Shown: piece after piece, positions 18,782-33,368 of the stretch
Layout of the letters: each line of letters starts with the position of its first letter
How positions within the stretch are numbered: position 1 is the stretch's first letter
From: Pseudofabraea citricarpa
Lineage: Eukaryota > Ascomycota > Leotiomycetes > Helotiales > Dermateaceae
Direction: 5' to 3'
Length of the DNA stretch: 64,000 nucleotides
Assembly: GCA_029641185.1 (NCBI GenBank)
Contig: JAPWGK010000004.1
Location: 1,302,001 to 1,366,000 of the forward strand
Program-made: the position numbers and the translations under genes
The notes under the pieces: generated by a model
Seen by the model: only the letters and a program-made list of their open reading frames with translations
Told to the model about the DNA's origin: nothing
The model's database searches: none

Positions 18782-20635
18782 AGATAGGATGGAGATGGTA
18801 TAGATATGTGGTCGCTTTTCGTTTGTGGGGTTAGGTGGTGGTTATTGTTATTAGTTGCAGGTCAAGCAAATTGCTAAATCTGCTTAGCCAGGTAGACAAT
18901 TAAGGAAGATAGGCGGGTGTCGTCACTGTGATATGGCACTAGCTTGCTTGCTTTTCTTTGTTAGTAGAAAGAAGAAGAGAAAAGAATGAATGAAGTGAAA
19001 CAGTTTGGGATGAGCTCTATCTGATACCAGACTTTCGGTGTTTGAATTAGTTGCCGTTGGGTCCCCATCTATGCAGGGACACTTATACACCAACCGGGCG
19101 GGAGTACCTCTGAGCACGAAGAGAAATTACATGCAGATACATGCATATACATATATCCACTGATCTCTAATTTTCCTTCTCAAAAAAAAATAAAAAGGGG
19201 ATAATCTCGTTCATCTATCCACACCCCTCTGATACGTGCTACCGGAGGTGCAGCCAATGTTCCAACCCCCCTCGCTTTTCGAAAGCACTTACCTACTCAC
19301 TTTTCATATGTTACCTACTGCGTATTCTATACCCTGTAGACTAATCCAAGTCCCATGCTAAACAAGGTAGGTAGGTAGGTGTATGAGGCGAGCCACCTAT
19401 CTGTCTCTTACAGCAAAACAAGTAGCTAGGTGGCTCAGTGGCTCAGTGGCTCAGTGGCTCAGTGGCTCAGTGGCTCAGTGGCTCAGTGGCTGGCGGACTC
19501 CCTTTTCGAGGGACAAAACTATGTTACTTGAAACAACACATAATCGGCTGCGAATGATCAAAAGACAAGAAAAAGAAGAGAAATCAAAAAAGAAGAAATC
19601 AAAAAAGAAGAAATCAAAAAAGAAGAAGAAGAAGAAGAAGAAGAAGAAGAGAAAGAAGAAGAGACGGGAAGGTATTTCACTTAACTTCTTCTCTCCGTAC
19701 GAACCTACCTACCTAGCTACGTATTCTTCTCAAGTCTGTAGTTTTCCGTCCCACGAATAGCCAACTCAGCCGGACACCGCAGATATATCATATAAAAACC
19801 TCACATACCCCCAAATCTAGAATCCCAAGAAAAGGGTTGAAAAACATCCATCCATCATCCATCGCATGAACCTCCGCTATCGGGTCTTGGGTCCTGCTTC
19901 CATTTAATTTTTGCTTGCAATCTGCTGCTGCACAACCTCCAGGCAGGCTCATTGCGTATTCGAGCATTCGTCAATATCTTGGTTTCGCAGCTAATATTCT
20001 TTGACTTTGGCGTCCGTCTGTTGATGGGACGAAGGAAGGGAGGGATTTATTCACTTATATCACTTACTTAGAAGGGCGACTGGACTGGGGAGTGAGGAAA
20101 GGACTCGTAGTTAGCCAGACCTTCAAATATCCACCTGCCTTTCACCAAACTCTTGTACCAACTTCTAACCCTGGCACCATGGTGAGTTAACACGTGCAGC
20201 TTTGAGTCTACGTATGAGCTATCGGCCGTTTGATATACGAAGAAACTTATCCTCATCTCGACGACGAAAAGCAAAAGCAAAAGCAAAAGCAAAAAAAAGA
20301 AAAAAGTATTAATTAGAACGACAAAATCTCTATGCTCATCCGCCTCCTATGTACACACAACACAGCGCAGAACTACGCACCTACGTACGCATCGCTACCA
20401 ACACCGGCAGCACCATCGCGTCCGTTCGTCCGTCCGTCTGTCTGTCTAGAAGAGACACCCATCATACATCGTACAACCATACTTGATACAAAAAAAAAAA
20501 AAAAACAGACAAAAACAGAAAACAGAAAGAAGAGAGAAAAAAATCATCTACGCCAGCCACACGCTGCCAATTCGTTTCTCATCCTCGCCTCGAGCTTCTC
20601 TCGCATATCCTAACTCCCGTAAACCACAGAACACC
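18782..20635. other. Convergent intergenic region with tandem repeats
   Basis: No gene is supported between the ends of the ThDP enzyme and the Trk transporter. It contains the 8-nt tandem repeat at 19430-19491, a purine-only AAG/GAA-rich tract at about 19565-19665, aaaagc units at 20266-20300 and an A-run near 20490. Confidence 0.6.
19430..19491 (+). repeat. Tandem octamer repeat (gtggctca)x7.7
   Basis: Seven exact gtggctca units plus a partial eighth unit. The unit length is not a multiple of three, so an open frame through it changes phase between units. This supports a noncoding minisatellite. Confidence 0.95.
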
Positions 20636-25969: not shown

Positions 25970-26181
25970 GAGGGGGCCAGTGGGCAGAAGGGTCGCAGGC
26001 TTGTGCAGGGAGGGCCGGCGTAGGGTAGGGTCAATAAACCGGGAGCATGTCAGACCAATGCAAGGAGGAGCGTGTGATTTTGGGCTGGAAGTCTTAGATT
26101 CTAGCTTGCGCTTTGGGGGGAGGGGGGAGATTCGAAGATCTCGGTAAGTTAGCGGACGACGCTAGAAGCACACGGGGGGGT

Positions 26182-26530
26182 TGGCTGGGCTGGCTGGGCT
26201 GGCTGGGCTGGCAATTGGGATTTTATAGCGACGGGAGGAGTGGGAGGAGGGGGAAGGAGGGGGTGTGTTGGGAGAGGGAGTGGGAATAGGATGAAAGGGA
26301 TAGGATGGGATGGGATGGGATGGATGGGGTGAGATGGGAAGGGGATTATTGAATATTGAATGCTAAAAATTGAAAATGATGCGGGTTTGTGGGCGGTGGA
26401 CAGTGGGCAGTGGGCAGTGGGCAGTGGACAGTGAGTGTATGTAGTGTAAGTAGTGTAGTGTAGTGTAGTGGGCATTATGTGCTAAGATGATGGATGATGG
26501 ATGATGGATGATAATGGATGATGGATGATA
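26182..26530. repeat. Cluster of five different microsatellites
   Basis: In order: tggctgggc units at 26182-26212, gggat units at 26300-26329, cagtggg units at about 26394-26432, tagtg units at 26451-26470, and gatggatgat units at about 26486-26530. Each is a different motif, read directly. Confidence 0.9.
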
Positions 26531-27152
26531 ATAAGACGAATGACTGGTAGAGTAGGTACATAGAGACTGGGGGGTGTGAGGGAAGTATAAGCAGGGGCAG
26601 GGCATAAAAAGTATTATCTGGCGATGACATAGCCATGTAGATGTTTACTGATAATAATACTGTCTGTTTGGGGGCTGTTTTTGGTGGTAGAGACTGTATG
26701 TGACCCCCAAGTGGCCCCCAGCTGGTTGCCTTGTGGCTGCTGTGGGGGAGTACGTAGGGTAGGGTAGGGTACTGTAGTGGTAATACGTTGGAAGTTCTAG
26801 GCTGCACTGCCTTGTGTGCCTCACTGTCAGTGACTGTCTAGCCCTGTGACTCTCTGGCACTCAATCACTACTGACCACTCAATCATCCATCATCCATCAT
26901 GCAGCCCAAACTCCCAAAACTCCCTAAACTCCCACACTCCCGACTCCCGACAATTACCAGCATTCATGCATTCTAGAAGCCATCACGTGCATCTTGGATC
27001 TGCCATCTCCCATCTCCCATCTGCCATCTCTGATCCTGATCCTGTTACCCAATATCTGCCACGGCATCCCCGACTTTCTACCCAACAACCCAATTACCCA
27101 ATTACCCAGTTACTCTCATCTCTTGGTGCAACCACACTTGACTCCTCCATGA

Positions 27153-27203
27153 TCAGTGCTCAGTGCTCAGTGCTCACCTCACCTCACCTCACCTCACCTC
27201 ACC
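27153..27203. repeat. Adjacent (cagtgct)n and (cacct)n repeats
   Basis: Three cagtgct-like units pass directly into five or more cacct units. This abuts more low-complexity sequence on both sides. Confidence 0.9.
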
Positions 27204-27429
27204 ATAGCTTCCTGATCCTTGGTGGCTACTGTATAGCCCTGCATCTTATTTAGCTCAGCTACCTAGATACATTGAGCATGTGGGCGGGAAAGTGGGATGA
27301 CCATGCTCTTTGCTTATCAGCATCATCACATCAAGAGATGAGCTGACTGAGTCACAACCACAACAATATACTTTGAACCTACAGCTAACTTCAAAGATAA
27401 GAGCCTTTTGGGGCGCGTGCATGATCGCT

Positions 27430-27471
27430 TTCACCTTCACCTTCACCTTCACCTTCACCTTCACCTTCACC
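27430..27471. repeat. (ttcacc)x7 microsatellite
   Basis: Seven exact hexamers. Translation through it gives Phe-Thr or Lys-Val repeats on the two strands, so frames here are artefacts. Confidence 0.95.
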
Positions 27472-28089
27472 TGCTGCCCTCATCGTGACCAGTGACCACG
27501 TCCTATGCACCACAACGGAGCAGAGCACGGCCCAGGACAAATCAGTTCCCCCTTCTGTCCTTCATCCCAGCTGCAGATTCTGCATCATCCAAACCACCAG
27601 CACAATTCTTTGCGTAAAAGCTTAAAGCGGAAGCAGGAGCATCTGATCCGGCTCGCGATACTACCTAGGTACGGACGTACGTACAGCAACACGCTCTTTT
27701 AAAACCACAGTAGTGATCATATCGCAATCTGACTTTTTCATTTAGTCTTGAGGACCGACCACATTACTTTTATTCCTCTCATTAGATATTTAGGCACGGT
27801 TATTTAATTATTCATCTTTTTTTTTATTTAATGCGTATTCGTGTATTGCAAGGTTGTTTGCGGCTGAATCACAGCCTGTTGTGAAAATCTGTCTGAATTC
27901 ATTCGGCTGGTGTTTTACGCAGTCTTCACTTCTCGCTTGATTGCTCAGCTACTCACGTGCGCTCATTCAGTGTGCTGTAACATCAATGTTCATCAGTAAT
28001 ATTCTCAAGAACAAGGCAACGAGGAAGAAAGGCGTACTCACTTCCTAACTCCGGCTTCATTCTTAAGTCTTTCTTAGTCTTTCATAGCT

Positions 28090-29355
28090 CTATTTGTTAA
28101 CTACACTACTCTCGCTAATCTCTGGAGAGTACTCCGAAAACCATGGGTTTCTTGCAATATCCTCCGCCAACAGACGCTGGCTAGGCTCATATGAGAGCAT
28201 TCCTCGGAGAAGGTTGAGAAATGCTTCCTGCTGGCTCAGTAGAAGCTGCGGGCAGTGCTTATTGACTAGCGAAGTGAGCGGGCGACCCGGTTGAAATGAT
28301 TCGGCATACCACCACGAAACGGGTTCGCGATCTGCCAAAGTGAACGAATGCTCCCATTCCGCTGGAAAGGGGCCGAGCACATCAACTATCGTCCCGAGCA
28401 TTATATACACGTTATCGAAGACGATGGGGAAAAGCCTCACCGAGCTCTGAATCTCGAAGATCAGGCATGCGAGAGCCCAGATGTCGCTCTTCTTCGAGGG
28501 AGGAAAGCCGAAGCACATCTCGGGTGCGAAAAACGACGGTGGTGTTCCTACGCCATCCGGCGGGCTTTTGGCAAAGAAGGATTGACCAAAGTCGCTGATG
28601 CGAATGTTTCCAAGTAGGTTTAGGTCGATGGTGGAGAAATCGACAGCCTGGACGACCTTTTTGGGAGCATGTGGCGAATATGACCCATCTACCAGTCTTA
28701 GTGAAGCAGTTTTAACAGGACCCAGACGCTTGTAGATTTCAGACTTTGACCAAGACTGGACGTCTCGAAGCTCAAACAGCACGTTGGAGTGAGTTAGATC
28801 TTAATGTAACTTTAGCGACAGGCTTGCAGTGATCAGATATTAAGACGTACCACCATGACATATGTCTAAGGAGTGTAAATATGCCAATCCGTTGGCAACC
28901 TGTTGAGCCGCCTTGTGGCGAAGGGATTTCGGAAGCTGCCTTTCACTCGTATTTTTAATGCTTGGTCCTAGGACAGGAAGGACCAAGCAGCAATGTAAGC
29001 CGTTCGGTCCATTGATTTGAAAGACATCATCAAGAGACGATATATTCGGATGAGCAGCGGCACATTTCTGGAGATGCTGGAGGATGTTGACTTCCATATC
29101 ATTTGTAACGTTGGCACACAGGATCTTGAGGGCGTAGTAGCGCTGCTCATCCACCGAGCGAGCAAGCCAGACTGTTGAAAAGCCTCCTGATCCAAGTTTG
29201 TGTATAACTTCATACAGTTTTTCTTCTTTGCCTAGTATGTCGCCTATGTTGACCGGATGGTAACCACCGATAGTGTATTTCTCAACATCTTCAACACCGT
29301 CTAGATTTGGGTCGCAGTACAGCCATTGTATTGACTCTGCAGACTTTCGAGACAT
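28090..29355 (-). CDS. SRPK-like protein kinase
   Basis: Two exons (29355-28851, 28799-28090) give 404 aa. The lead-in EDVEKYTIGGYHPVNIGDIL is characteristic of SR-protein kinases and their fungal relatives. Kinase landmarks follow: glycine loop LGSGGFSTVWLA, ATP-binding Lys in ALKIL, catalytic loop HGDLTHSNVLF (completed across the intron), metal-binding DFG in ISDFGQSFF, a degenerate APE segment in PSFFAPEMCFG, and DIWALACLIFEI. The usual Lys two residues after the catalytic Asp is Thr, as in many fungal SRPK-like paralogues, so activity may be altered. The long spacer of true SRPKs is missing. It probably belongs to the expanded fungal SRPK-like group rather than being the splicing kinase itself. 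Confidence 0.9.
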
Positions 29356-30100: not shown

Positions 30101-30844
30101 TCAACATCGTCCTCCACAGCGGTTGCAGCACTCCCCACAGCACCTGGCCAGGTTAGCACATATCATGTCACTTTTGCATTTTGCTTTACCTATCACAGCA
30201 TCTATCACAGCATCTATCGCAGCACCTGTCACAGCACCGGTCACAGCATCTATGGCCATTAGCATAGTCCGGCAATTCCGTTGGCTGTAGATAATACCTG
30301 TCGCAGCACCGGTCGCAGCATCTGCCATTATAAGTCAGCACATTGCTCTATATTGAAGACATCTGTACTTACCTATCACAAGCACGATCGCAACACCTAG
30401 CAAGCCCAATTAGCATCAAAAGCAAGTGGTGGAGAGAATCGTTCTGCCTACCGATCACAAGCACGGTCACAGAATCGATCACAGAATCTATCGCAGAATC
30501 TGTCGCAGCATCTACCACAGCATGTCAATATCAATATCGCTCGAGGAACAGAGCTAGCCAAAGCGAAAGAAATACCTATCACAGCACCGATCGCAACACC
30601 GATCACAATTACAACAAAAAACCCACCCACAGCAGTTCTTGATGCTCCCCCAGAACCCACTCCGTCTCTTCCCAATTCTCTTGCTAATTCCGAATTCGTC
30701 TTCAAGAGTGTGTGTCTGCTGCATCATGACTGGTCTGGGCATAGGTCCTGGTTGCTGCTTGACCAGGTAAGCACGTTGGTGATGCTGCGGTATCATATCT
30801 TCCTCTCTTGAACCGAGCCGCGTCCATGGTGCCGTTGACGACAT
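30101..30844 (-). CDS. Cysteine-rich protein with tandem Cys-x-Asp-Arg tetrads encoded by symmetrical mini-exons
   Basis: Six exons (30844-30576, 30511-30452, 30396-30373, 30321-30298, 30249-30190, 30143-30101) join in frame to 159 aa. Residues 1-65 are unremarkable (Gln/Met/Pro-rich, then SKRIGKRRSGFWG). From residue 70 the sequence is nearly all Cys, Asp and Arg: KNCCGWVFCCNCDR, then about 17 tetrads of the type CCDR, FCDR or ACDR, ending CCGECCNRCGGRC. All five introns (46-64 nt, GT...AG) interrupt the Arg codon of a tetrad in phase 2, and the four internal exons are 60, 24, 24 and 60 nt. No signal peptide is visible. The regular Cys spacing suggests metal binding or disulfide or palmitoyl chemistry, but I recognise no named family and give no function. 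The exon structure is deduced from splice consensus and perfect frame maintenance. Confidence 0.82.
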
Positions 30845-32794: not shown

Positions 32795-33368
32795 ATGACT
32801 GGACGTAAGTAATCTCTCTCCCTTTATCGCAAATCGCGATTCCTCACCGTCGCGGGCCCTCTCGGTCGCGCGTTACCTAGTGGGTGAGGTGATACTATTC
32901 CGAGATATCGACGCGCTTGATCCTCAACCAATAGCATTCACCTCTACCCACCACGGCATCCACTGTACACTTCTACAATACATGAATATATACTGACGCG
33001 TTTTCATTACAGGCGGAAAGGGTGGAAAGGGTCTCGGAAAGGGAGGAGCCAAGCGTCACCGCAAGATTCTTCGTGACAACATCCAGGGTATCACAAAGCC
33101 CGCTATCCGTCGTCTCGCGCGTCGTGGTGGTGTCAAGCGTATCTCAGCCAGTAAGTCGCGTCAGCTAACCCTCACTTTCTACACCATACTAACATATTTC
33201 GCAGTGATCTACGATGAGACCCGTGGTGTCCTTAAGGGATTCCTTGAGGGTGTTATCCGTGATGCCGTCACCTACACTGAGCACGCCAAGCGCAAGACTG
33301 TCACCTCTCTCGATGTCGTCTATGCCCTCAAGCGCCAAGGCCGTACCCTCTACGGTTTCGGTGGTTAA
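32795..33368 (+). CDS. H4: Histone H4
   Basis: Three exons (32795-32804, 33013-33150, 33205-33368) encode 103 aa, the canonical length. The N-tail [19 protein letters not shown], the core beginning [18 protein letters not shown] and the end GRTLYGFGG match H4 throughout. The first exon is only 10 nt and the first intron 208 nt. It is a nucleosome core component partnering H3. No H3 gene lies next to it in this window; the upstream neighbour on the opposite strand is the CxDR gene about 1.95 kb away. Confidence 0.99.

Follow-up and report, generated by a model that had tools for sequence, protein, structure and literature searches.

A spliced fungal gene for a novel CCDR tandem-repeat protein, tentatively read as a metallothionein-like thiolate array

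Long multi-exon fungal metallothioneins, e.g. TmMT of Tremella mesenterica, CnMT1/2 of Cryptococcus and AcMT1 of Agaricus crocodilinus, are built from repeated Cys units. The TmMT gene has 10 exons of 63-105 bp, introns from 48 bp and repeated Cys blocks, and genes of this kind are said to be often misannotated (PMC4755600). In AcMT1 the introns measure about 50 bp, and an intron was included in an internal duplication (PMC12508003). Closely spaced cysteines are also found in the CC-x2-CC motif, the tetracysteine spacing to which biarsenical dyes bind (PMC3157907), and in the CYSTM proteins, described as small, Cys-rich, tail-anchored membrane proteins of many eukaryotes (PMC10217909). The gene reported here, from Pseudofabraea citricarpa, is like the fungal metallothioneins in its repeated Cys units, and its anatomy is comparable to that of TmMT and AcMT1.

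The gene lies in a window, i.e. the whole stretch of 64,000 nucleotides that was analyzed and to which all positions refer. On the minus strand, between 30844 and 30101, six open blocks joined across five GT-AG introns give 480 nt, encoding 159 aa and ending in a TGA stop. An earlier, sequence-only reading had proposed a six-exon, 159-aa model on this strand, which was reproduced exactly. A stop codon is found in frame upstream of the ATG, and the spliced CCDR frame contains no premature stop. Exon 1 (30576..30844) carries the start codon, a Q/P-rich N-terminus, a basic-aromatic linker and the first three CDR units. It is followed by intron 1 (30512..30575; 64 nt, GTATTT...TAG, with a branch-like ATTGAC) and by exon 2 (30452..30511), whose 60 nt are five units, namely one CCDR, three FCDR and one ACDR. 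Intron 2 (30397..30451; 55 nt, GTAGGC...TAG, branch GCTAAT) leads to the 24 nt of exon 3 (30373..30396), i.e. the two units CCDR and ACDR, and intron 3 (30322..30372; 51 nt, GTAAGT...CAG, branch GCTGAC), the retention of which would bring in an in-frame stop, leads to the 24 nt of exon 4 (30298..30321) with two CCDR units. Beyond intron 4 (30250..30297; 48 nt, GTATTA...TAG, branch GCTAAT), exon 5 (30190..30249) consists of 60 nt and five CCDR units. Intron 5 (30144..30189; 46 nt, GTAAAG...CAG, branch GCTAAC) separates it from exon 6 (30101..30143), which holds the degenerate last units CCGE CCNR CGGR C and the TGA.

All five introns are in phase 2, each splitting the Arg codon of a repeat tetrad, and exons 2-5 (60, 24, 24 and 60 nt) each contain a whole number of 12-nt units. 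The introns had been called canonical, and this is true of their GT-AG borders, but the GTAAGT donor occurs only in intron 3. A CTRAY branch motif, of which about 9.5% of shuffled 30-nt stretches contain one by chance, is present in introns 2-5, and a weaker TTGAC in intron 1; the distance from the motif A to the intron end is 9-13 nt in all five. Intronised repeats and copied introns were both considered as sources of the introns, and comparisons with shuffled controls showed neither. The lowest shuffled fraction was 0.06 in five tests of similarity between intron and array and 0.03 in ten tests of the introns against each other, nothing outstanding given the numbers of tests.

The product begins with a Cys-free, Q/P-rich N-terminus and continues through the basic-aromatic linker into 17 in-register CDR units (NCDR, then 16 CxDR units in mixed order: 11 CCDR, three FCDR and two ACDR) and the degenerate tail, in agreement with the sequence-only count of about 17. 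Two Cys per unit, as claimed in the same reading, are found in 11 of the 17, but not in the remaining six, where the first position is occupied by Phe (three), Ala (two) or Asn (one). Cysteine makes up 38 of the 159 residues, and 38 of the 89 from residue 71 onwards. Ten CC-x2-CC motifs (nine CCDRCC and one CCGECC) form two overlapping runs of two and eight, and there are 14 Arg-Cys junctions and a single CxC motif. The N-terminus has no hydrophobic stretch such as the signal peptide of a secreted small cysteine-rich protein would show; among 19-residue windows, the one with the highest mean hydropathy (0.59) begins only at residue 62. A structure predicted for the exon-1 product only was uninformative (mean pLDDT 55.9, pTM 0.13, no secondary-structure assignment).

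The main evidence that this reading frame is the one that matters comes from a codon-by-codon comparison of the 16 CxDR units (120 pairs). The second Cys, the Asp and the Arg are identical in all 16, while their codons differ: TGT and TGC occur 9:7, GAT and GAC 10:6, and Arg is encoded by AGA (7), CGG (4), CGT (2), AGG (2) and CGA (1). Pairwise differences amount to 280 synonymous and 119 nonsynonymous (N/S 0.42), with the nonsynonymous ones confined to the first codon of the unit, i.e. Cys, Phe or Ala. Relative to the consensus, nine nonsynonymous changes were observed where 33.4 would be expected from random placement, and none of 20,000 simulations gave a value as low, a figure that is only a guide since the simulation takes the units as independent. 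The other five frames of the array gave N/S values of 11.3, 7.1, 25.6, 1.44 and 346 to 0, and one of them contains 15 stops. At the codon level, then, the array bears the mark of purifying selection at Cys-2, Asp and Arg, and this bears out the earlier opinion that a chance origin was unlikely with a stronger argument than the frame continuity cited for it.

A 12-bp repeat may nevertheless exist at the DNA level only, or have its coding frame elsewhere, and control arrays speak on both sides of this alternative. Among 20 viral contigs with CDRx4 matches, nine hold at least 10 units and the other 11 hold three to five. In 17 of the 20, the CDR frame is surpassed by some other frame as the longest open one across the array (in L036 with 221 codons against 220), so such shadow frames are a common source of CDR-like DNA. 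The exceptions include L024, where the CDR frame of 130 codons is the longest; L033 and L034 are uninformative, since their nominally longest frame only ends at the array. The nine long arrays (L023, L025, L027-L030, L036, L037 and L041) each have 17-36 copies of a 12-nt unit that can be read as CDRx in one frame; their longest open frames specify different tetrads, e.g. AATD or RPDL. In all nine the CDR-frame N/S exceeds 1, as against 0.42 here, although the figures for L025 and L029 are identical, so that the nine loci represent eight distinct arrays. Most of the 11 short viral loci show no differences at all between units, and two of them, L024 (five units, 4/8) and L042 (four units, 0/6), have a CDR-frame N/S below 1 like the present array; since these values arise with few units, the test needs a long array. 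Codon-level selection, the worse values of the other frames and the viral controls together make the CCDR reading the likely product, and a non-coding minisatellite or a shadow frame very improbable.

The stricter CCDRx3 pattern gave eight DNA matches in viral and prokaryotic contigs. The CCDR frame measures only 15-56 codons in six of these; it reaches 166 codons in L022 and 342 in L019, where it spans a stretch of N. Codons repeat identically or nearly so at these loci, the same array is found in L016 and L017 and likewise in L020 and L021, and L018, L020 and L021 are partly or wholly CCDS, since Ser is allowed by the pattern as well.

Pfam, NCBIfam and protein-database searches assigned the protein to no known family, in line with the earlier statement that no characterized family with this repeat is known. 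Profile searches returned no Pfam and no NCBIfam family at E 10 or below. A database search with the whole protein yielded 729 candidates and one match at E 0.001 or below, the hypothetical protein P7K49_017149 of Saguinus oedipus (E 4.4e-9, 37% identity over 58%). This protein also has runs of CDR/CDG tetrads, but it is uncharacterized and of low complexity, with mixed tetrads of C, G, Y, W, S, D and R, and the resemblance is probably due to chance. PUF4 chains in the PDB (E 0.02) were judged to be compositionally similar and were set aside. For residues 1-82, no protein-database candidate shared three 5-residue words. By their titles and the beginnings of their abstracts, none of the papers listed describes a CCDR array, and the string CCDRCC occurs in no paper of the collection searched.

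Within the fungal genome (44 Mb in 43 contigs) no second locus with the array was seen, and the search with the gene gave one place. The protein search hit this locus in three pieces and, on contig C4, a candidate paralogue (E 0.004) that turned out to be a CAGA microsatellite. The CDR-x-CDR pattern matched 12 times at the locus and once elsewhere, with a single two-unit match on contig C8. In L006, bases 2621-2746 are a long CAGA microsatellite with TDRQ-type tetrads in all three forward frames.

An SRPK-like protein kinase gene of 404 aa with one 51-nt intron is situated at 28090-29355 on the minus strand, and it served as a yardstick for database coverage, with 620 matches among 3776 candidates. 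Among the 120 matches listed, the best was an ENA protein without a name and, of the named ones, a protein from Chlorociboria aeruginascens, both 76% identical, and partial matches of 73-82% came from Leptodontidium and Scytalidium. The best named match suggests a genome in or near the Leotiomycetes. Since the kinase finds such matches, leotiomycete proteins are present in the database, though perhaps none from a close relative, and missed annotation may be part of the reason why the CCDR protein has no match there. Other features of the window are a short open frame at 33204-33368 on the plus strand, which resembles the C-terminal part of histone H4, closely packed short tandem repeats with many different periods at 26178-27472, and a perfect 8-base tandem repeat, GTGGCTCA, in 7.8 copies at 19430-19491.

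The lack of any relative for residues 1-82, together with the one low-complexity match of the whole protein, would also fit a young or decaying orphan gene, whose array was selected formerly or expanded recently and whose protein is now without a fixed function. Codon usage points the same way in being unremarkable: residues 1-82 score -0.031, and 70% of 1039 other open stretches (median 0.015) score as high. The N-terminal part thus gets no support from codon usage, in a test of little power, as even the neighboring kinase gene scores only 0.025. Against this explanation stand the three invariant residues of the 16 units, kept despite diverged codons, and the spliced frame free of premature stops, and we regard it as quite unlikely. 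On the evidence of the sequence, the spliced nuclear gene is real and its repeat novel.

What the protein may do can be approached through the systems described at the outset. The sequence-only reading had named metal binding, a disulfide ladder and multiple palmitoylation at a membrane as candidate roles; we rank a metal-thiolate array first, S-acylation second and oxidative cross-linking third. Of the features of fungal metallothioneins, the protein has the small size and the very high proportion of Cys. The CxC-rich 7-Cys blocks (PMC4755600) are absent, and so is any match to a family profile. For these two latter reasons we do not class the protein as a fungal metallothionein, although it may work like one. 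While the TmMT blocks are CxC-based and contain Pro and Gly, the array is a strict C-C-D-R tetrad without Pro or Gly, preceded by a Cys-free N-terminus of 70 residues. Its CC-x2-CC motifs have the spacing of the FlAsH tag (PMC3157907), the difference being that the tag is an engineered single hexapeptide and the array a natural overlapping tandem series.

We tentatively favor, at somewhat less than even confidence, a small and probably intracellular protein that works as a metallothionein-like thiolate array. A reducing compartment is likely given that the protein has no hydrophobic N-terminal stretch, and in a reducing cytosol the array would be a polythiol ligand. Each CC-DR-CC block could coordinate one soft or borderline metal ion (Zn, Cd or Cu(I)) through four thiolates, or could hold trivalent arsenic; with the tetracysteine spacing, binding of any of these at such a block is plausible. 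The Arg next to Cys would favor thiolates, the Asp would balance the charge, and the ten overlapping blocks, by sharing cysteines, could act as a metal buffer or sink, with the basic-aromatic linker possibly tethering the protein near a membrane or nucleic acid. Several observations count against this reading. The six units without a first Cys remove CC-x2-CC sites from the middle of the array, and no recognized metal-binding motif is present, given the single CxC and the empty profile searches. Furthermore, no Ace1-like copper site, by the motif that we assume for it, was found in the 1 kb upstream, against 0.92 per kb across the window, which is weak evidence against copper control.

The same linker and array could instead be palmitoylated at many Cys and anchor the protein to a membrane in the manner of cysteine-string or CYSTM proteins, which likewise have a small size, a Cys-dense C-terminal part and Q/P-rich N-termini. 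The basic-aromatic stretch and the closely packed cysteines behind it (7 basic, 2 acidic and 5 Cys among residues 50-82) agree with this, as does a first unit position that accepts C, F and A, i.e. hydrophobic or small residues. However, an Asp follows every repeat Cys pair, and Asp beside cysteines is unusual for acylation sites. Neither the CYSTM profile nor its hydrophobic C-terminal Cys module was found, the maximum hydropathy given above falling short of a transmembrane-like stretch, and the Asp-Arg between Cys pairs sets the array further apart. S-acylation, which we rank second, is possible but rather doubtful.

Third in rank is an oxidative cross-linker, in which disulfides between arrays would give an insoluble structural material, e.g. 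in spores or under oxidative stress. In hair and sperm, tandem repeat proteins rich in Cys serve as cross-linked structural material, and the Cys density of the last 89 residues would suit such a role. Its low place is due to the missing N-terminal hydrophobic stretch, signal-peptide-like or otherwise, that would direct export to an oxidizing compartment, the cytosol being reducing; the strictly kept Asp and Arg are also not obviously needed for it, and we consider it unlikely.

Returning to the gene itself, each internal exon consists of whole units and all introns share one phase, so any skipping among exons 2-5 keeps both frame and register and changes only the unit count, the units from these exons then numbering 0, 2, 4, 5, 7, 9, 10, 12 or 14. 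Variable unit number could in this way be a property of the gene anatomy, its regulation being putative. Intron 4, as the only one of the five that is a multiple of three without a stop, is possibly retained, and its retention could give a 175-aa form. Intron position, repeat register and splice-site sequence coincide here in a clean case, and a gene split every few repeat units could escape annotation.

A more far-reaching version of the thiolate reading, which we hold to be rather unlikely, is a natural polymer of a new class that binds metals or arsenic, i.e. a strict CCDR thiolate array unlike the CxC metallothioneins, with the number of sites set by exon skipping. If metals or arsenic are bound, the protein would be metallothionein-like under a different spacing rule, CC-x2-CC with a fixed Asp-Arg, and nature would have an equivalent of the tetracysteine tag, of a simplicity that would allow its reconstruction as a material.
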